64,000 bases of DNA from Anaerolineae bacterium (lineage in GTDB: Bacteria > Chloroflexota > Anaerolineae > Aggregatilineales > UBA3940), in assembly GCA_016926255.1 (NCBI GenBank), contig JAFGOY010000067.1, positions 124,001-188,000 of the forward strand. The letters run 5' to 3'. The position numbers and the translations under genes were made by a program. Of the stretch, positions 687-45,978 are shown piece by piece (the stretch's first letter is position 1; every line of letters starts with the position of its first letter). The notes below the pieces were generated by a model. The model searched no databases. It saw only the letters and a program-made list of their open reading frames with translations, and was not told the origin of the DNA.

Positions 687-1937
687 GTGGCCGAAACCCT
701 CAGCAGCGGTGCAAGCTGTAGATTCTGTGGAAGCGATCTCCATTACACCTTTGTCGATCTGGGGATGTCGCCCCTGTGCGAAAGCTATGTAAGCCTTGAA
801 CAACTGAACCAGATGGAGCCGTTCTACCCGCTTCATGTGTTCGTCTGCGAGAAGTGCTTCCTGGTTCAACTGGAAGAGTACGTCAGCCCGGAAGAGATTT
901 TTAGCGACTATGCCTATTTTTCGGCTTATTCCGACTACTGGCTGAAACACGTCAGCGACTACACGGACATGATCACGGAACGCCTGAAGCTGGGAGCAGA
1001 CAGTCTCGTCGTCGAGTTAGCCAGCAACGACGGCTACCTGCTGCAATACTTCATTCCGAAGGGCGTCCCCATCCTGGGGATCGAACCGGCGGCGAACGTC
1101 GCAGAGGCGGCGGAAGCGCGGAACGTCCCGACGCTGGTGCGGTTCTTCGGCGAGGCACTGGCACGCGAACTGATCGCCGAAGGCAAACAGGCCGACCTGG
1201 TGATCGGCAACAACGTGCTGGCCCAGGTGCCCGACATCAACGATTTCGTGGAGGGGATGAAAATCCTGCTCAAGCCGCAGGGGGTGATCACGATGGAGTT
1301 TCCCCACCTGATGCGTTTGATGGCGGAAAACCAGTTCGACACCATCTACCACGAACACTTCTCCTATTTTTCCCTCATCTCGGTCGAGAAGATTTTCGCC
1401 GCGCACGGGCTGACGCTGTTCGACGTGGAAGAACTGCCCACGCACGGCGGATCGCTGAGAATCTACGCCTGTCACACCGAAGACACGAGCAAACCGGTCG
1501 GGCAGCGGGTGATCGATCTGAGGAACAGGGAAGAATCGGCGGGCTTTACCCGGATGGAAACCTACGACTCATTCTCCGAACAGGTAAAGGACACGAAGCG
1601 AAAGCTCCTTGATTTTCTGATCGAGGCCAAAAGTGAAGGTAAGTCTATTGCCGGGTACGGTGCACCGGGCAAAGGGAATACGCTGCTGAACTACTGCGGC
1701 ATCCGCACCGATTTCCTCGACTACACCTGTGATCGCAACCCTCACAAGCAGGGCATGTTCCTGCCCGGAACCCACATCCCGATCTTCCACCCCGACAAAA
1801 TCGAAGAAACGAAACCGGATTACGTGATGATCCTGCCCTGGAACCTGAAGGACGAGATCATGGCGCAGTTGAGTTTTATCCGCGATTGGGACGGAAAGTT
1901 CATCGTACCGATCCCGGAAGTGAAAATTTATCCCTGA
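687..1937 (+). CDS. SAM-dependent sugar C-methyltransferase
   Basis: A 416-residue protein with the three-part layout of NDP-hexose C-methyltransferases. An N-terminal zinc-binding domain has Cys pairs at 11/14 and 54/57. A Rossmann SAM-binding core follows, with the acidic motif around E110 (E-L-A-S-N-D-G-Y). The C-terminal domain carries G-Y-G-A-P-G-K-G-N at about 323-331. Relatives add a C-branch methyl to nucleotide-linked ketodeoxysugars, so the role is probably in surface-glycan or glycosylated-metabolite synthesis in the cytoplasm. The start is GTG, chosen for the AAGGAG 12 bases upstream. The next two genes, a nucleotidyltransferase and a deacetylase, support a sugar-modification operon. 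Family assignment is firm; the exact substrate is unknown. Confidence 0.9.
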   Translation: MAETLSSGASCRFCGSDLHYTFVDLGMSPLCESYVSLEQLNQMEPFYPLHVFVCEKCFLVQLEEYVSPEEIFSDYAYFSAYSDYWLKHVSDYTDMITERLKLGADSLVVELASNDGYLLQYFIPKGVPILGIEPAANVAEAAEARNVPTLVRFFGEALARELIAEGKQADLVIGNNVLAQVPDINDFVEGMKILLKPQGVITMEFPHLMRLMAENQFDTIYHEHFSYFSLISVEKIFAAHGLTLFDVEELPTHGGSLRIYACHTEDTSKPVGQRVIDLRNREESAGFTRMETYDSFSEQVKDTKRKLLDFLIEAKSEGKSIAGYGAPGKGNTLLNYCGIRTDFLDYTCDRNPHKQGMFLPGTHIPIFHPDKIEETKPDYVMILPWNLKDEIMAQLSFIRDWDGKFIVPIPEVKIYP

Positions 1938-1983
1938 CCCAGAAAAAGAGTATCCGGCAAGCGCGCTCAAGGAAGGGTAACCA

Positions 1984-2787
1984 ATGAAAGTCGTTCTGTT
2001 TTGCGGCGGATTAGGCATGCGGATGAGGGAGTTCTCGGAGAGAATCCCTAAACCAATGGTGACCATTGGATACCGCCCTATCCTGTGGCACGTGATGAAG
2101 TACTATGCCCACTACGGCCATAAAGATTTTATATTGTGTCTTGGCTACAAAGCCGACAGCATCAAAAGGTACTTCCTGGACTACGAGGAGACTCTCTCGA
2201 ACGATTTCGTACTGGCGCAAGGCGGGAAAGAAGTAGAACTGCTCAACAGCGACATCCACGACTGGCGGATCACGTTTGTCGATACCGGCCTGCACTCGAA
2301 CATTGGGCAGAGGCTGAAAGCGGTCGAGAAGTACCTGGAAGGCGAAGAGGTGTTCCTGGCGAACTACAGCGACGGCCTGACGGATATTCCGCTGCCGGTA
2401 TTGACCGACTGCTTTTTCGAGCACGGGAAAACAGCCTGCTGCATATGCGTCAATTCCACGCAGAGTTTTCACATCGTATCGGTGTCAGATGGCGATTCCC
2501 TGGTGCAGTCGATCCAGCCCATCGGGCATTCGAATATGTGGATCAACGGCGGGTTTTACGTCTTCGGAAAAGGCATATTTGACTACATTAAAGACGGGGA
2601 GGATTTAGTCGAGGAGCCTTTCAAACGACTCATCGAAGCCGGGGAACTCGTCGGCTACCGGTATGACGGGTTCTGGACGGCGATGGATACCTTCAAGGAC
2701 AAGCAGCGCCTGGACGATCTCTTCGGTTCCGGGCAGGCCCCCTGGCTGGTGTGGGAAACGAAACACGCCCCGGCAAGAAAGAAGTAA
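1984..2787 (+). CDS. Sugar-phosphate nucleotidyltransferase, RfbF-like
   Basis: A 267-residue protein close in length and pattern to glucose-1-phosphate cytidylyltransferase. The N-terminus has the nucleotide-binding signature G-G-L-G-x-R-x-R with the I-P-K-P-M motif (Lys23). It continues with P-I-L-W-H-V-M and L-G-Y-K-A-D, then N-Y-S-D-G as the metal-binding aspartate region. RfbF makes CDP-glucose, the entry to CDP-dideoxyhexoses. An RfbF-like role fits the adjacent C-methyltransferase, but nucleotide preference cannot be read from sequence alone. The ATG follows an AAGGGTAA ribosome-binding stretch, 46 bp after the methyltransferase stop. Confidence 0.87.
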   Translation: MKVVLFCGGLGMRMREFSERIPKPMVTIGYRPILWHVMKYYAHYGHKDFILCLGYKADSIKRYFLDYEETLSNDFVLAQGGKEVELLNSDIHDWRITFVDTGLHSNIGQRLKAVEKYLEGEEVFLANYSDGLTDIPLPVLTDCFFEHGKTACCICVNSTQSFHIVSVSDGDSLVQSIQPIGHSNMWINGGFYVFGKGIFDYIKDGEDLVEEPFKRLIEAGELVGYRYDGFWTAMDTFKDKQRLDDLFGSGQAPWLVWETKHAPARKK

Positions 2788-2792
2788 GGATA

Positions 2793-3434
2793 GTGCTCAA
2801 AACAAACTTCGAATCGATACACAGGGTGCTGTGTCTTGGCGCACACAGCGACGACATAGAGATCGGGTGTGGCGGGACGATCCTGAAGCTGATCGAGGAT
2901 CACCCGGACATCGAATTCTACTGGGTCGTGTTCAGCGGGTCGGCGCACCGGACGAAAGAAGCGGAAAGAAGCGCCAGCCTGTTCCTGGAGAACGTGAGCA
3001 AGAAACAGATTGTTGTCAAGGATTTTCGTGACGGCTTTTTCCCCTACGTTGGTTATGAGATCAAAGAGTATTTCGAAGAACTGAAACGCGCCTTTGTGCC
3101 CGATCTCGTATTCACCCACTACCGGCACGATCTGCACCAGGATCACCGCCTGATCTGCGAGCTGACCTGGAACACGTGGCGGGATCACCTGATCCTCGAA
3201 TACGAGATTCCCAAATACGACGGCGACCTGGGGCAGCCCAACTTCTTCGTGCATCTGAGCGAGGCGACCTGCCGCAGGAAGATCGCGGCGATCCATGAGG
3301 CGTTCGAGTCGCAGCGGGACAATCAGTGGTTCACCGAAGAGACCTTCCTGGCGATCCTGCGGCTAAGGGGGATCGAGTCGAATGCGCCGGAGAAGTACGC
3401 GGAAGGGTTCCACTGCCGGAAGATCGCGTGGTAG
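2793..3434 (+). CDS. PIG-L family deacetylase
   Basis: A 213-residue LmbE/PIG-L-type zinc deacetylase. The metal-binding motif A-H-S-D-D-I-E-I-G lies at residues 17-25 (His18, Asp20, Asp21), and the second motif, H-x2-D-x-H-x-D-H, at about 109-118. Members remove N-acetyl groups from GlcNAc-containing substrates such as lipids, mycothiol precursors or glycans. I chose the GTG at 2793, six bases after the upstream stop, because AAGTAAGGA lies directly before it. An ATG at 2751 would overlap the previous gene by 37 bp. The tight spacing argues for one operon with the nucleotidyltransferase. Deacetylase family is clear; substrate unknown. Confidence 0.88.
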   Translation: MLKTNFESIHRVLCLGAHSDDIEIGCGGTILKLIEDHPDIEFYWVVFSGSAHRTKEAERSASLFLENVSKKQIVVKDFRDGFFPYVGYEIKEYFEELKRAFVPDLVFTHYRHDLHQDHRLICELTWNTWRDHLILEYEIPKYDGDLGQPNFFVHLSEATCRRKIAAIHEAFESQRDNQWFTEETFLAILRLRGIESNAPEKYAEGFHCRKIAW

Positions 3435-3579
3435 GATTCGGATGCGCCCGGAGATAAATCCCTCCGATATCTCATTCAAACAGGATCGATAGAGACTCGT
3501 GCTCGCCGCGGTTTGACACCCAACCACGTCACGACTAAGATAAGCATGCGTCGCTCGCTCGGTTTGCCAGGGGTGCGTT

Positions 3580-6500
3580 ATGTCGCAGCAAAGCTACTCT
3601 CCGGAGTACCGCCATTCCTGGGCAATCATCATCGGCATCGACCAATACCAGGACCCCACAATCCGCCCATTAGATACCGCCGTTAAAGGATCCCGTGCCG
3701 TCGCCGCTCTATTGCGCGACGAGTTAGGATTCGAGTCCGAGCGGATCATTATCCTGACAAATGAAACCGCCACCCAGCGCGCCATCCGGCGTGCATTTTC
3801 CGATCCACTGGGCAACAGTGAGAAGGTCGGGCGCGATGACCGGGTGATCATCTACTTCGGCGGGCACGGCCTGACCTACGACACCGCCGAGGGGCTGATC
3901 GGCTGCATCGCTCCTTATGATATCGAGGGAAGCTACTGGGATACGGCGATCTCGATGGACGAACTGACCCGGCTCGCAAACCGGAGCCATGCCAAGCATG
4001 TCCTCTTTTTGATCGATGCCTGCTTCAGCGGCTATGCAACAGTACGCGAGGTCGGCAGGGGCGCACAGCGGCAGGTATCTGATTATCTCACGCGCTCGGT
4101 GCGGCAGGTCATCTCCGCCGGGACGCGCGATCAGGCTGTATCCGATCTATGGGGGCCGGGTCAACACTCTTTGTTTACCGGTTTCTTACTCCAGGCACTG
4201 CATGGCGCGATGCCCGCGCCGGGAGGTATTCTACGGGCATTCCATCTCGCGGGTTATCTGCAAGATCAGGTGGGGCAGCACTCGTATTCCCGGCAGACGC
4301 CGCAGTATGCGGCGTTGATGGGCAGCCAAGGCGGCGATTTCGTTTTCAGCGTGCGCGACGTGGTCGAGCTGCCCGACTGGCTTGTCAGCACCGTAAAAAG
4401 CACCGATCCGACGCAGCGCATGGTCGCGGTCAGCCACCTGTTGAAGATCGCACAGGGCGACGATCCACGGCTGGCGGATGTGGCAGTCGAGCAACTGGAG
4501 ATACTGGCAGACGACGAGAATCCACTGGTTAACTCATCAGCCCAGGCCGCACTGGAGCAGATTCTCCCCAGCCCGACGGTCAAACCGTCCGAGCGAGAGG
4601 AGCCTCTCGACCATGATACGCTCACCGGGCTGCGGCCTCCGGTGGAGATCAGCGAAGCGAGTATCAAACACGAACCGGAAGTACCTGCAATCGACGAGGC
4701 TCCGGGTTATGTCGAGGAAATTACGCCTGAGCCAGAGCCAGCCATCAGCAGGGTAGAACCCGACATACAACGACCGCCCGCGACACGACCCGCACCGGGA
4801 GTACCGGCAGCCAGGCCAGCGCATCAGGAGCCAAGACCGGCAAAACAGCGGCGGGGAATCCCGGTCTGGGCATGGGTGGCTGCCGCCTTCGTCGGCGTGG
4901 CGACGGTGATTGGGGCAATCGTGGTCGTTCCGCCCATTATCGATTTTATATTTGGTGGTGCCGCGACTGAAGAACCTGTTTCGGTATATGAGCCACATGG
5001 CACACAGGAACCAGCAGGTATTGGCGCGGAAATATCACCCATCGAGGGGTCGACGGAAGAAGAGCCACCACAAGGTGAACCAGCCGGAGGTGCACTGACC
5101 AACGACCCAGCCATGCCCCTATATATATCCAATACAGATGTGGGAACTCCCCAACAATGGAGTCCCTTCTTTTCAGGGGATTATATTACGTCCGGAACGG
5201 TTGGACTGGTATACGAGCCTCTCTTCCTGTATGACCCGATGAAAGATGAAATGATCCCTTTCCTGGCCAAGACTGCCGAATGGAGCGATGCAAATACGTA
5301 TCTTTTGATATTGCGCGAGGGCATTACCTGGACTGATGGAGAGCCGCTGACGGCTTTGGACGTGGCGTTTACGTTTGATATAGCCCCGACCTATGACTTG
5401 TGGTACAGCCCGGTGTGGAATTATCTCGTCGATGTGGAGGTTCTGGACGATGTAACCCTGCAGTTTACATTCAATGATCCGCTCTACCAGGATTGGGCCT
5501 ATCATCTCTACAATATCCCGATCGTGCCTGAACACATCTGGGCTGGCAGCGATGAGGATGAGATCTATGGGGAATTTCATACAAACCCGATTGGATCAGG
5601 TGCCTATCTGTATGATTCCCACACCGATGACACCAATGTCTGGGTTCGGAACCTGGATTGGTGGGGCATTGACGTGTTTGGCCCACCAGCCCCAACCCAT
5701 ATCGTTAATATCGCTGTAGCAAATGACAGTTTCCTCGCAATGCAGCTGGCCGGAGAACTGGATATCAGCAATCGTTTCCTGCCCGAAGCATCCTCGCTAT
5801 CCGCTGAGGGTTCGATATTAACCTACTATCATGAGCCGCCGTATATGGTTCCGGGCAACACGACAGTTCTATTCATGAATACAACCAAAGCCCCGCTAGA
5901 TGATTCGCGAGTCAGGCGGGCACTGGCGTATGCCATCGACTCCTATCAGATTGTCGATTATGCATATTCAGACCTTGTACTAACTGCCAGCCCATCCGGG
6001 TTGCCGCCGCATCTATACAGGTATATCGATCAGGACATAGAGAGCCTCTACGATCCCGAAGTCGCCATTCAACTCCTGGCTGAAGCTGGTTACGTTGATA
6101 CTGATGGTGATGGCTATGTCAATGGAATGGATAAAATAAGCATCAGCTGTCCAAGTGGTTGGACAGGTTGGGAGGCGGCGATTAACGTCATCGCGGACAA
6201 CGCCCGCAAAGTCGGGATTAATGTTGTCGTTGAGACACTTGACTACCAACTCTGGCGAACCGAACTCGCATACGGAACCTTCGACATGACTTTGAACAAT
6301 CAGACAGGGATGAGCAATACGCCCTGGACACTGTATGATTACATATTCAAACACCCGATCCAGGATGAAATGTGGAGTGGAAACTACGGCAGATATGACA
6401 ATGAACAATTATTCTACTGGGTGGATGAACTGGCCCGGATACCCTACGAGGACACAGCCAGCACACAAATGGGTTCATCGGCCATACAAGAAATGACGCT

Positions 6501-6675
6501 GACCGAGATGCCGGTTATTCCGCTGTGGTATACGAGTGTGTCAGCGCAATACACCGAGACCCGCTGGACAAACTGGCCATCGGAAGACGGGCCGAATATT
6601 GTCCCTTCGACCTGGCCGGGCTACTGGCAGACAGGCGGTTTGATGATGCTCATCAACCTGGAACCGGCGCGATAA
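3580..6675 (+). CDS. Caspase-HEAT-TM-solute-binding (SBP_bac_5) fusion receptor
   Basis: A 1031-residue multidomain protein. Residues ~10-255 form a caspase-like (peptidase C14) domain with both catalytic motifs: His96 in F-G-G-H-G and Cys148 in I-D-A-C-F-S-G. Residues ~262-330 resemble one or two HEAT-like helical repeats. A Pro/Glu-rich linker leads to a single membrane helix at ~428-460, flanked by K-Q-R-R before it and acidic residues after it, so N-in/C-out by the positive-inside rule. Residues ~506-1031 are a nearly complete family-5 extracellular solute-binding domain, with V-Y-E-P-L, L-R-E-G-I-T-W and D-G-E-P-L-T-A-L-D-V. No permease or ATPase gene is nearby, so the binding domain probably senses rather than transports. 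The frame is continuous through both domain borders; there is no sign of an assembly join. Ligand and protease target unknown. Confidence 0.93.
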   Translation: MSQQSYSPEYRHSWAIIIGIDQYQDPTIRPLDTAVKGSRAVAALLRDELGFESERIIILTNETATQRAIRRAFSDPLGNSEKVGRDDRVIIYFGGHGLTYDTAEGLIGCIAPYDIEGSYWDTAISMDELTRLANRSHAKHVLFLIDACFSGYATVREVGRGAQRQVSDYLTRSVRQVISAGTRDQAVSDLWGPGQHSLFTGFLLQALHGAMPAPGGILRAFHLAGYLQDQVGQHSYSRQTPQYAALMGSQGGDFVFSVRDVVELPDWLVSTVKSTDPTQRMVAVSHLLKIAQGDDPRLADVAVEQLEILADDENPLVNSSAQAALEQILPSPTVKPSEREEPLDHDTLTGLRPPVEISEASIKHEPEVPAIDEAPGYVEEITPEPEPAISRVEPDIQRPPATRPAPGVPAARPAHQEPRPAKQRRGIPVWAWVAAAFVGVATVIGAIVVVPPIIDFIFGGAATEEPVSVYEPHGTQEPAGIGAEISPIEGSTEEEPPQGEPAGGALTNDPAMPLYISNTDVGTPQQWSPFFSGDYITSGTVGLVYEPLFLYDPMKDEMIPFLAKTAEWSDANTYLLILREGITWTDGEPLTALDVAFTFDIAPTYDLWYSPVWNYLVDVEVLDDVTLQFTFNDPLYQDWAYHLYNIPIVPEHIWAGSDEDEIYGEFHTNPIGSGAYLYDSHTDDTNVWVRNLDWWGIDVFGPPAPTHIVNIAVANDSFLAMQLAGELDISNRFLPEASSLSAEGSILTYYHEPPYMVPGNTTVLFMNTTKAPLDDSRVRRALAYAIDSYQIVDYAYSDLVLTASPSGLPPHLYRYIDQDIESLYDPEVAIQLLAEAGYVDTDGDGYVNGMDKISISCPSGWTGWEAAINVIADNARKVGINVVVETLDYQLWRTELAYGTFDMTLNNQTGMSNTPWTLYDYIFKHPIQDEMWSGNYGRYDNEQLFYWVDELARIPYEDTASTQMGSSAIQEMTLTEMPVIPLWYTSVSAQYTETRWTNWPSEDGPNIVPSTWPGYWQTGGLMMLINLEPAR

Positions 6676-6719
6676 AAGCAAACCAGATCACGGATATACA
6701 GCCGGGTAGGAACTATCAC

Positions 6720-7109
6720 CTATCCGGCTTTGTTTTCTCCATGCGACATCTTATGTACAATCCACCAGGTGCCGTCGATCTTCATCATGTGGAAGTAGTC
6801 GATATAGCGAACGGTCTGGCATTCGATGCGCAGCTTGACTGAGGCAAAGTTGCCCGTCACGTCAACGCTATAGAACTCAGTTTCCCACTCAAGATCGGGG
6901 TTACGATCTTTCGGATCGTAAAACAAGAGATATTCATCCCGGGTTATGATGCGCGGCTGGCCGGACTCGTCGAGGATCATGAAGCGCCAGTCAGGATGCA
7001 GAATCGGCTCGTAGTACTTCGCGTCGTGTTTTGCATGGCCCTCGTGGTAGTAGTCGAGGATCGCCTGCTTGATCGCCTGCACCTCGGCTGTGATATCGTC
7101 TGTATACAT
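6720..7109 (-). CDS. SnoaL/DUF4440-like NTF2-fold protein
   Basis: A 129-residue protein with the NTF2-like pattern. An N-terminal helix is followed by H-D-A-K-Y-Y-E-P-I-L-H-P-D-W-R-F and a strand-rich second half ending in D-G-T-W-W-I-V-H. Relatives include small polyketide cyclases, ketosteroid-isomerase-like proteins and stand-alone domains of unknown role. No catalytic assignment is possible here. I chose the inner ATG at 7109, which has a GGGAAAGG stretch upstream, over an open extension to 7223. That extension runs through a repeated intergenic hairpin and has no family resemblance. Cytoplasmic, probably monocistronic. Confidence 0.75.
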   Translation of the reverse strand: MYTDDITAEVQAIKQAILDYYHEGHAKHDAKYYEPILHPDWRFMILDESGQPRIITRDEYLLFYDPKDRNPDLEWETEFYSVDVTGNFASVKLRIECQTVRYIDYFHMMKIDGTWWIVHKMSHGENKAG

Positions 7110-42375: not shown

Positions 42376-43842
42376 TCATGATTTCTGAGGCAGAAAACCG
42401 TCGACCACCACCCAGATCAGCAGAGAGGCGATGATCAGCGGCGGGACAAACCGAAAATCGTATAGATCGAACAGCTCTTCAACGTTCCATTGGTAATACA
42501 TGGCCGGGATAATCCAGATCAATGCGCCAACGACAAATGCCCCGGCCTGCCACCAGCGCTGTTGGATCGCCCTGACGACGCCAACCGCAACTAAGATCGC
42601 GACCGTCGAGAGATACCAGCGGTTATCATCGAGCGAGCGTGTCATATCGTAGATCAAAGCAGTCAGGCCGACCAGGATCGCCAGCACAGGCCAGAAACGC
42701 CGCAGCAGGCTCAGGGCGGGGCTTTCAGCGGATCGCGCCGCAGGCTTTATTTCAGCCGTCTCCAGACGCCCTGCCCCGGATTCGCGCTGGCGCTTGAGCC
42801 GCTTCTCGATTCGATCCGCCGAAACGGGGACGGTCGGCGCGGCGCGGCCTTTGACACCGGGAGCCGGGCCGCCGCCCTGCTGAGTGAGGGTCGGCCCCAT
42901 GCCGAGCACCGCACGGGCAGCGTAGGATACCCGGCGGCTGTCGTCTTCGGAGAGGTGAAGCAGGGCTTCACGAGCAAGCTCGGCCAGGGCGGGATCGCTG
43001 CCCCGGAGGATGCTCGCCAGTTCCCTGATCACCCCTTCACGCACACCCGTCAGCGGGCTTTCGATGGCGACGCTGATTTCGGGCGGCAGATGGCGGATCG
43101 GTTCATCGGCCCAGAAGACGAAATCGCCGCCGCCCGATCCGAGCAGGTGACCGTAGTGGGGGGTCTGGCGGCTGTGGGTGTTCGATCCGACCTCGCGCTG
43201 GAGGTAGAGGCCAAGCTCGTTGGCGGTGAGCATTCCCCCGCGCTTATTAAGACGGTCGAGGAGGAGGCCGGTAAACATCGAGTGGCCTTCCGGGCCATAG
43301 AGATCGAGCACCACCTGATCGGCCTGCCCGGCGGCGATGGCCTGCACCGCGCGCCTGCTGACGAGATCGGCAACCAGCCGCCTGCCCATCGACACCGACC
43401 GGGTGAAGGCCAGCCCGCTGAAACAGGCGTCGAGCAGAAAGAGGATGTGCTTGGCCGGGATGAACTTGCTGCGGTCGACGAGATCGTCCATCTCGATGGC
43501 CCGGTGATACTGGCCCGGCCTGACGCCGTAGGGCATCAGAAAGCCGACCGGCGACCCGGTGGTGGTCTGGCGGGTGAAGCCGTGACCGGCAAAATAGATC
43601 ACCAGCCTATCGTCGGGGGACGTGGCACAGAAAGCGCTGTCGATGTGGCCGAGGATCGCCTCACGGGTGGCGGCCTCGTTGCAGAGGGTGGTCACCTCGA
43701 AGCCATCGTCGCGCAGCCAACTGGCGACCGCTTCCGCGCCGCGAACGGCGGTTTTCAGCGGCGGCAGAGCATCGTACTGATCGATGCCGATCACCAGTGC
43801 GTACGACTGGCCGTAGCGGTCGTGATAGGTCGTCTCCTCCAT
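42376..43842 (-). CDS. Caspase-like peptidase with four C-terminal membrane helices
   Basis: A 488-residue protein. Residues ~12-250 form a peptidase C14 caspase domain with His87 (F-A-G-H-G) and Cys140 (L-D-A-C-F-S-G). Residues ~260-325 form HEAT-like helices like those of the caspase-solute-binding fusion at 3580. A basic linker leads to four predicted membrane helices (~385-485). The catalytic domain should face the cytoplasm. Both dyad residues are present, so it may be active; bacterial members of this branch usually cut after Arg/Lys. AAGGAGC precedes the ATG. It heads a run of minus-strand signalling genes. Confidence 0.9.
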   Translation of the reverse strand: MEETTYHDRYGQSYALVIGIDQYDALPPLKTAVRGAEAVASWLRDDGFEVTTLCNEAATREAILGHIDSAFCATSPDDRLVIYFAGHGFTRQTTTGSPVGFLMPYGVRPGQYHRAIEMDDLVDRSKFIPAKHILFLLDACFSGLAFTRSVSMGRRLVADLVSRRAVQAIAAGQADQVVLDLYGPEGHSMFTGLLLDRLNKRGGMLTANELGLYLQREVGSNTHSRQTPHYGHLLGSGGGDFVFWADEPIRHLPPEISVAIESPLTGVREGVIRELASILRGSDPALAELAREALLHLSEDDSRRVSYAARAVLGMGPTLTQQGGGPAPGVKGRAAPTVPVSADRIEKRLKRQRESGAGRLETAEIKPAARSAESPALSLLRRFWPVLAILVGLTALIYDMTRSLDDNRWYLSTVAILVAVGVVRAIQQRWWQAGAFVVGALIWIIPAMYYQWNVEELFDLYDFRFVPPLIIASLLIWVVVDGFLPQKS

Positions 43843-43959: not shown

Positions 43960-44046
43960 TGGGGATGAGTCAGCGATGTTGACTCTCATGGTGAGGATGG
44001 TCGATAATGGGATGGGTATCAATCACATCACATTCAAGGATTTCAT

Positions 44047-45978
44047 ATGTCGTCCACACAAAAGACAGTATTCATTAGCTATCGACGCAGTGTTGCATCA
44101 TACATCGCTAGAGCAGTATTTCTATATTTGCGTTCGAAAGACTTTGACGTATTTATGGATGTAGAAAGTATCGGAGCTGGAGAGTTCGAATCAATTATCC
44201 TCAACCAGATTGAAGCCCGCGCCCATTTCCTACCTATTCTTACACCAGGTACGCTAGAACGATGCAATGAACCAGGTGACTGGCTGCGCCGGGAAATCGA
44301 GCACGCAACCAACATACAACGAAATATTGTTCCAATACTGGTGAATAACTTCCGATTCGAAGACGTGCGGAACCATTTGACTGGTGAACTGGGAAAACTA
44401 CCAGGATATCAAGGGGTAATGCTTTATCATGATTATTTTGATGCGGGGATGGAACGGTTGTGTGATCGCTTCCTATCAAAACAGATAAGTGTTGAAATTG
44501 AGTCTCCCCCACCTGAGCAAAGTCAGGAAGTCAACCGTATGATCGATGTAGCAGATGAAAAACCTTATCCGACAGAAATAGAGCTTGATTCTGAAGCTCA
44601 TTTCTTTCGAGGTTTGGCAAAGCATAACGCAGGCGACCTTGAAGCAGCCTTTTCGGAGTACAGTAAAGCGATCCATCTCGATCCACAAGAAGAGGCTGCG
44701 TTCTATAATCGAGGATTGATATGCTGGAAGCAAGGGGATTTAGAAGGAGAAATCGCTGATTATTCAAAAGTTATTGATATCAATCCACAGAATGCAGATG
44801 CGTACTTAAATCGGGGAATTGCACAGATCAACCAGGACAAACTTGAATCCGCCATCGCCGACTATAACGAAGCTATCAGACTCAATCCTGAGTATGACAT
44901 GGCATACTTCTGTCGAGGTAATGCTAATGCGTCTCTAGGCAATATTGAAAGAGCCATAGATGACTACAATATGGCAATTGAACTCGTCTCTGAAAACAGT
45001 GACTATTTTTGGGCTAGAGGAGTAACTTACAGAAATCTTGCCAACTTTGATGATGCGATATCCGATTTTAACATGGCCATCAACCTCAGTACCAACAATG
45101 CCGAATTGTACATGTCACGAGGCATAACACACTATATGAACAGCGATCTGGATCAGGCATATAAAGACTTTGAAAAGTTTATATATCTCAAGCCACAGGA
45201 TGTAAGGGGGTACGCCGGAAGGGGCTCAATAAAGGCGGAAATGGGAGACCTAGAAGCAGCAATCGCGGAGTTCGATGCTGCTCTACAAATCAACCCAGAG
45301 TGGGTTTCAGGATATGTTGATCGTGGCGAAATAAGAAAGCGACAAGGTGATATACTTGGAGCCATCTCCGATTTCAGCGAGGCAATACGGCTTGATCCAC
45401 AGCGCGAGACCGCATATTTCAGTCGTGGAGAAACCTTTGAGCAACAAGATGACCTTGAAAGCGCCATCTCCGACTACAGCAACGTGATCCAGATTAACCC
45501 AGACTCAGTCGTCGCACATAATAATCGAGGACATGCGCTTATACGGCAGGGAAGTTACAAAAAAGCAATAGAAGACTTTAGTGAATTAATCCGAATCGAA
45601 CCCCAAAATGCTGATGCATTCAATGAGAGAAGTTGTGCCAGATTAGTGCTCGGCGAACTACAGAAAGCACTTGAAGATGTAAATAAATCGCTAGAGCTTA
45701 GTCCTGAAAACGCCTATGCATACGATACACGTGGTTGTATCTATCTCGAATTCGGCAAAAATGAACAAGCTAAAAACGATCTAGACAAAGCCATCGATCT
45801 CGATCCTACTCTAGACGAACCGTATAGAAACCGTGCGAAAGCGCAGTGGGCGCTGGGCGATCTGCACGATGCACTGGCCGATTATGAAAAGTATCTCGAA
45901 TTAGGTGGCGGGGAGCGCAACGGGGATCGAGAGGAGATCGAGCGGCTAATTGAGGAGATTCGCGGGCAGATCGGGTGA
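44047..45978 (+). CDS. TIR domain-TPR protein
   Basis: A 643-residue protein. Residues ~6-140 are a TIR domain with V-F-I-S-Y-R-R, the D-V-E-S-I-G-A-G-E-F loop, L-T-P-G-T-L and D-W-L-R-R-E-I-E-H-A, in which Glu83 sits where the catalytic Glu of NAD-cleaving TIRs is expected. Residues ~185-640 hold about thirteen tetratricopeptide repeats (A-x-x-N-R-G, A-I-x-D-Y). TIR-TPR proteins are widespread in multicellular-type bacteria and some are NADase immune effectors; a role here is inferred. Most of the gene is clearly A+T-rich relative to neighbours, but the last ~145 bp switch to host-like GC. No signal peptide. Confidence 0.9.
   Translation: MSSTQKTVFISYRRSVASYIARAVFLYLRSKDFDVFMDVESIGAGEFESIILNQIEARAHFLPILTPGTLERCNEPGDWLRREIEHATNIQRNIVPILVNNFRFEDVRNHLTGELGKLPGYQGVMLYHDYFDAGMERLCDRFLSKQISVEIESPPPEQSQEVNRMIDVADEKPYPTEIELDSEAHFFRGLAKHNAGDLEAAFSEYSKAIHLDPQEEAAFYNRGLICWKQGDLEGEIADYSKVIDINPQNADAYLNRGIAQINQDKLESAIADYNEAIRLNPEYDMAYFCRGNANASLGNIERAIDDYNMAIELVSENSDYFWARGVTYRNLANFDDAISDFNMAINLSTNNAELYMSRGITHYMNSDLDQAYKDFEKFIYLKPQDVRGYAGRGSIKAEMGDLEAAIAEFDAALQINPEWVSGYVDRGEIRKRQGDILGAISDFSEAIRLDPQRETAYFSRGETFEQQDDLESAISDYSNVIQINPDSVVAHNNRGHALIRQGSYKKAIEDFSELIRIEPQNADAFNERSCARLVLGELQKALEDVNKSLELSPENAYAYDTRGCIYLEFGKNEQAKNDLDKAIDLDPTLDEPYRNRAKAQWALGDLHDALADYEKYLELGGGERNGDREEIERLIEEIRGQIG

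Follow-up and report, generated by a model that had tools for sequence, protein, structure and literature searches.

Results

Layout of the caspase-SBP gene

The DNA analysed here (the window) is a stretch of 64,000 nucleotides corresponding to C15:124001-188000 of a 4.6 Mb genome assembled in 82 contigs (G000). Reading of the open reading frames of the window revealed a frame on the + strand that extends from the ATG at 3580 to the stop at 6675 over 1031 codons without interruption, as had been described in the initial annotation. The encoded chain joins a caspase to a solute-binding protein (SBP) domain. The features assigned to the locus were the following:

3513..3541, + strand: promoter-like site, TTGACA-17-TAAGAT, 39 bases 5' of the ATG; the count of such sites is not above chance
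3580..6675, + strand: protein of 1031 aa with the order caspase, HEAT-like segment, linker, membrane helix, SBP_bac_5 (profile and frame analysis)
3616..4272, + strand: Peptidase_C14 (caspase) domain, residues 13-231 (profile matches and predicted fold)
3865..3867, + strand: putative catalytic His96 in GGHG
4021..4023, + strand: putative catalytic Cys148 in DACFSG
4375..4563, + strand: HEAT-like four-helix segment, residues 266-328 (AF2 pLDDT about 83-94; HEAT_2 match in the relative L080)
4573..4872, + strand: Pro/Glu-rich linker, predicted to be cytoplasmic, residues 332-431 (sequence; partly alignable to the relative in genome G006)
4873..4929, + strand: single membrane helix, residues 432-450, after AKQRRGIPVWAW (hydropathy; PVWAW-type entry in relatives)
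4930..5115, + strand: acidic linker, predicted to lie outside; homology to the G006 protein stops here (alignment)
5116..6672, + strand: SBP family 5 domain of the mannoside-binding type, residues 513-1031 (profile and relatives of solved structure)
6700..6729, + strand: terminator-like stem of 11 pairs with a T-rich tail, directly past the stop (stem search; called strong)

Judged from the sequence, this architecture, from which we infer function, is real and well supported.

The upstream neighbour of the gene is an unrelated PIG-L deacetylase. It belongs to a co-directional set lying just upstream (687-3434, + strand) that comprises C-methyltransferase, nucleotidyltransferase and PIG-L deacetylase genes, which are probably sugar-modifying. 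The initial annotation had noted the lack of transporter genes beside the frame; this holds for importers, but an ABC-2 exporter pair is present some 5 kb upstream, beyond the edge of the window. The window contains a second caspase, which is 44% identical over residues 1-325 and ends in a membrane-helix bundle. It is divergent from a protein with TIR_2 and TPR domains (the two genes are at 42379-43842, - strand, and 44041-45975, + strand), after which come genes for a rhodanese lipoprotein and an FHA protein.

The N-terminal part

When residues 1-270 were scanned alone, PF00656 was matched with an E-value of 4.4e-16, whereas hmmscan of the whole chain and a PF00656 search of the protein's own genome both missed the caspase. 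Since the whole-chain scan lost this match, any absence of such proteins from domain databases may reflect filtering. The chain also matched NF047832 (E 9e-23) with 80.8 bits, or 85.1 bits for the N-terminal part, against a curated cut-off of 140, and the PADLOC 'caspase' profile with an E-value of 5e-18. The dyad His96/Cys148, previously reported as intact, was invariant in 46/46 aligned homologues. An AF2 model of residues 1-334 built from six sequences had a mean pLDDT of 82 and a pTM of 0.80; it replaced a run with two sequences (pLDDT 53). In a Foldseek search against the PDB the model resembled MALT1 paracaspase, metacaspases and the bacterial protein GSU0716 with E-values of about 1e-11 (best 8e-12). 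The N-terminal part is thus predicted to fold as a caspase, and by its modelled fold and His-Cys dyad the protein is a member of the caspase family with putative proteolytic activity.

The HEAT-like segment seen in the initial annotation appeared in the AF2 model as four helices forming a mini-solenoid. HEAT profiles matched it below threshold; in a relative (L080) HEAT_2 was found at the equivalent place with an E-value of 0.002, which is also below the cut-off.

The solute-binding domain and its origin

The C-terminal part had been described as a nearly full-length family-5 domain, and the profile match agrees with this: residues 557-924 cover positions 1-362 of the 368 positions of SBP_bac_5 (PF00496; E 1.7e-64). 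The closest solved structures were mannoside-binding proteins of Thermotoga maritima (E about 1e-123; 43% and 40% identity). The entries concerned, 4pft, 1vr5 and 4pfu, correspond to TM1223/TM1226. All SBP relatives detected at E <= 1e-70 in class-level genomes (24/24) were stand-alone frames of 595-698 aa, as were the two relatives from the same family (54% identity in G008, 45% in G001). Each of these two, the only ones whose neighbourhoods were read, heads an operon of the type permease-permease-ATPase-ATPase, and the relatives whose N-termini were read have lipoprotein-type signals. In the 1031-residue chain neither a signal peptide nor a lipobox was found, and importer genes were absent from the neighbourhood.

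Searches of the same genome (G000) did not find a second SBP of the TM1223/TM1226 type, nor a close copy of the cognate importer permease, the best candidate being 33% identical and located beside another SBP; a full-chain scan of the genome's contigs yielded distant SBPs only. At a genome completeness of 96%, permease and stand-alone SBP are likely to be absent from G000. It thus seems from the sequence comparisons that the binding domain of an importer was joined to a caspase in a genome that apparently lacks the matching importer. The fused domain could also be a working part of transport, delivering ligand to an ABC importer with the caspase regulating uptake. Its intactness, its closeness to importer SBPs and the presence of other peptide-type importers in G000 would fit such a role, but with no adjacent importer gene, no close permease copy in the genome, no lipobox and, in the relatives described below, swapped partners that are unrelated to transport, we regard it as highly unlikely.

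The fused domain differs at 22% of the positions that are invariant among 16 stand-alone relatives; the values for TM1226 and TM1223 are 22% and 16%, respectively. Relaxed constraint had been considered for the fused domain (22.8% against 0-10% changed) and was dropped because TM1226, a genuine binding protein of like divergence, has 22%; the figure thus speaks neither for nor against ligand binding. Of the 32 invariant aromatic residues, 27 are kept.

A caspase family with exchanged ectodomains

Homologues of residues 1-331 (E <= 1e-20) were present in 17 of the 154 genomes of the order; within the same family, 8 of 9 genomes have one. In fourteen proteins, counting the present one, the caspase is followed by a single central helix with over 150 residues on its far side; their ectodomains are of at least seven kinds. 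Among the caspase relatives the protein G006:C359 is the closest, with 57% identity over residues 1-330. It can be aligned through the linker and the membrane helix, but beyond the helix the SBP is replaced by an FGE-sulfatase domain. A PVWAW-type entry to the helix is common to our protein and members from G006, G007 and G005, among them carriers of beta-propellers. Because even beta-propeller members share it, linker and helix are part of the caspase chassis. The border of the SBP, at about 4930-5115, is exactly where the other members switch ectodomain.

FGE-sulfatase ectodomains were found in the G006 protein and in G000:C40; the latter caspase (L078:4453-7446, + strand), encoded in the same genome as the SBP fusion, matches FGE-sulfatase repeatedly on the outer side of its single membrane helix. 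WD40 or PD40 propellers occur in G007, G003 and G005, and a C39-like peptidase fold in G005. A further G005 member (G005:C390; L080:584-3199, - strand) contains five CxxCH motifs beyond the helix and matches Cytochrome_C7 with an E-value of 9e-5, just under the cut-off; by these motifs its ectodomain is probably a multiheme cytochrome c, and the protein is possibly a redox-sensing caspase. Beta-sandwich ectodomains were recognised by eye as concanavalin-like, with weak Pfam support for one of them.

In a maximum-likelihood tree of the caspase part, sister pairs carrying different ectodomains were well supported: SBP/FGE (100/99), C39/PD40 (100/98), multiheme/FGE (100/100) and small domain/WD40 (99/96). 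Such sisters show that ectodomains have been exchanged on a constant chassis. Further members of the family have a tail helix only, a multi-helix bundle or no helix, which indicates that the caspase can do without a sensor on the outside.

A second caspase-SBP_5 fusion was detected neither in the 154 genomes of the order nor in samples of the class and of the phylum (roughly 850 phylum genomes), and a plasmid search returned distant caspases only, with no binding domain in the annotations among the 20 matches listed. The lack of homologues with the same fusion had been named beforehand as an argument against the gene. The exact fusion occurs here only, but the relatives share the chassis through the membrane helix, and since they change the ectodomain alone, we do not consider this absence fatal.

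Related caspases occurred in other settings as well. In other genomes of the class (L084, L085, L086) two different caspase genes are in tandem, one with a C-terminal helix bundle and the other with the metacaspase-like motifs SGHGSQM/DCCHSG. Three IMG/VR contigs filed as viral (L116-L118) encode related caspases of about 580-660 aa, which have an unassigned C-terminal region in common.

The exact fusion was found in one metagenome-like assembly of 82 contigs without a close congener, and such a chain might be a false join of two genes. Apart from the single genome, this would fit the drop of third-position GC from 0.71 in the caspase to about 0.56 in linker and SBP (mean 0.69, sd 0.10 for long ORFs of the window). 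The shift, however, starts in the linker of the caspase gene itself and not at the SBP border, which fits domain capture; moreover, the frame has no stops and is followed by a terminator-like stem, linker and helix align to the G006 protein, with the PVWAW-type entry present in others too, and the ectodomain begins where those of the relatives begin. Taking into account that the chassis recurs, that the close SBP relatives located are stand-alone and that no close copy of the importer permease was found in the genome, domain capture is the better reading and an assembly chimera is extremely unlikely.

A genuine fusion could still be a recent accident without a selected function, as its single occurrence and the divergence of the SBP at positions conserved among importer SBPs might indicate. 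Against this, the frame has neither stop nor frameshift, the invariant aromatic residues are largely retained (see above), and fusions of this sort have been kept repeatedly in the same caspase family. In addition, the SBP is at most 55% identical to any SBP searched, which argues that the fusion is not very recent. We consider an accident very unlikely.

Topology

The initial annotation had proposed one membrane helix flanked by basic residues on the N side and acidic residues on the C side. A hydropathy script gave the same picture for residues 432-450: four K/R flank the helix N-terminally, and its C-terminal flank has three D/E and no K/R. Script and sequence reading revealed no second membrane helix or signal peptide in the 1031-aa chain. 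Among the 14 single-helix members, the K/R bias was towards the N side in 11, with two ties and one reverse case. The c-type haem motifs mature outside the membrane, so a cytochrome domain of the kind seen in G005:C390 must be outside. The lack of a signal peptide, the single helix, the K/R bias, the exported SBP relatives and the relative with CxxCH motifs together point to an N-in/C-out orientation. Caspase and SBP are thus predicted to lie on opposite sides of the membrane, the caspase inside and the SBP outside, an arrangement that the initial annotation had also required.

Discussion

We estimate the probability at about 0.5 that the gene encodes a single-pass receptor protease switched by a ligand, in which a cytoplasmic caspase with a HEAT-like adaptor is joined to a captured oligosaccharide-binding ectodomain, as one member of a lineage-specific family with swapped ectodomains. 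Architecture, family and swapping are shown by the sequences; the topology is deduced from several lines of evidence, and ligand, gating, activity and outcome are inferred. In such a protein the binding or loss of an oligosaccharide-like ligand would make the SBP lobes move or close, or the chains cluster; the membrane helix would then bring caspase domains together in the cytoplasm, and the activated caspase might cleave cytoplasmic targets, perhaps including its own linker. A receptor-switched caspase had been suggested from the start and is still the best reading; the swapping of ectodomains within the family, the failure to find a close cognate permease in G000 and the predicted N-in/C-out topology all strengthen it. 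The accompanying idea that the architecture is unprecedented did not survive (see below).

The main rival to the receptor reading treats the C-terminal domain as cargo, tether or effector: the trigger would be cytoplasmic, reaching the caspase by way of a partner or of the HEAT-like segment, and either self-cleavage would free the ectodomain or the ectodomain would simply hold the protease at the cell surface. Kaur et al. see the variable domains of EACC1 caspases as effectors deployed via auto-proteolysis, members with a tail helix, a helix bundle or no helix would suit this scheme, and many of the ectodomain folds are binding or structural. On the other hand, SBP and the probable redox cytochrome are typical sensor material, and a cut in the cytoplasmic linker would not obviously free anything useful outside. 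We hold this reading to be rather improbable, if worth serious attention.

Returning to the receptor reading, it may tentatively be extended to the whole group, which would then be a death-receptor-like family with a constant caspase and interchangeable sensors that respond to sugars, proteins, surfaces and redox state, signalling through one helix. For the beta-propeller, beta-sandwich and FGE ectodomains, an adhesive or structural role is possible in place of a sensory one. To our knowledge prokaryotic caspases are numerous and their triggers largely unknown. A caspase chained by one helix to an SBP with relatives that bind known mannosides has a candidate input that can be named, and offers a direct test of ligand-gated caspase signalling in bacteria. 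The family, whose chassis was repeatedly wired to new outside domains, would parallel the death and immune receptors of animals by convergence.

Searches of the literature text found no described case of a caspase with a solute-binding or SBP_bac_5 domain, and neither the SBP_5 version nor the present swapping family was found in the literature searched. The claim of the initial annotation that no system with this architecture had been described must nevertheless be withdrawn, since fusions of a caspase, a membrane segment and an extracellular periplasmic-binding-protein (PBP) domain have been reported (Kaur et al. 2020, PMC7159879). In the EACC1 systems of that study a constant caspase is combined with about 50 alternative C-terminal domains, and some of the caspases have membrane helices followed by the extracellular PBP domain. 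The present family resembles them in its constant N-terminal caspase and variable C-terminal domains, and the present protein also in its membrane helix and outside binding domain. EACC1 systems, in contrast, occur mostly in actinobacteria and sporadically in proteobacteria and have the EACC1 gene next to the caspase gene, whereas our gene comes from a different lineage and no EACC1 gene was found among the ten neighbours scanned; its caspase is below the NF047832 cut-off and its SBP belongs to family 5, of the oligosaccharide-importer type. A genome-wide PF19953 search in G000 gave no match, but the control was likewise silent. By the sequence tests possible, the gene is not an EACC1 system.

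EACC2-caspase proteins also join a constant caspase to a highly variable C-terminus, which can include the extracellular receptor CHASE2, and activation by auto-peptidase activity has been proposed (Kaur et al. 2021, PMC8195603). In these proteins the caspase is preceded by an alpha+beta domain, and their partners are of the TRADD-N or ECF sigma/TPR type. In our chain the caspase already begins with residue 13, and the neighbours scanned include none of these partners. Among cyanobacteria, metacaspases carrying ANF_receptor (Cyanothece PCC 7424) or CHASE2 (Trichodesmium) domains have been described (Asplund-Samuelsson 2012, PMC3501461). These likewise combine a caspase with an extracellular ligand-binding domain, and for the CHASE2 protein the proposed logic is the same; they differ in receptor domains, helix numbers and phylum, and are single sequences rather than a swapping family. 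TM1223/TM1226 match our binding domain over its whole length, but each is exported as a protein of its own that serves an ABC importer, whereas in our protein the domain is carried by a membrane-anchored caspase. The swapping family carries the caspase-PBP concept of Kaur et al. past the EACC1 systems.
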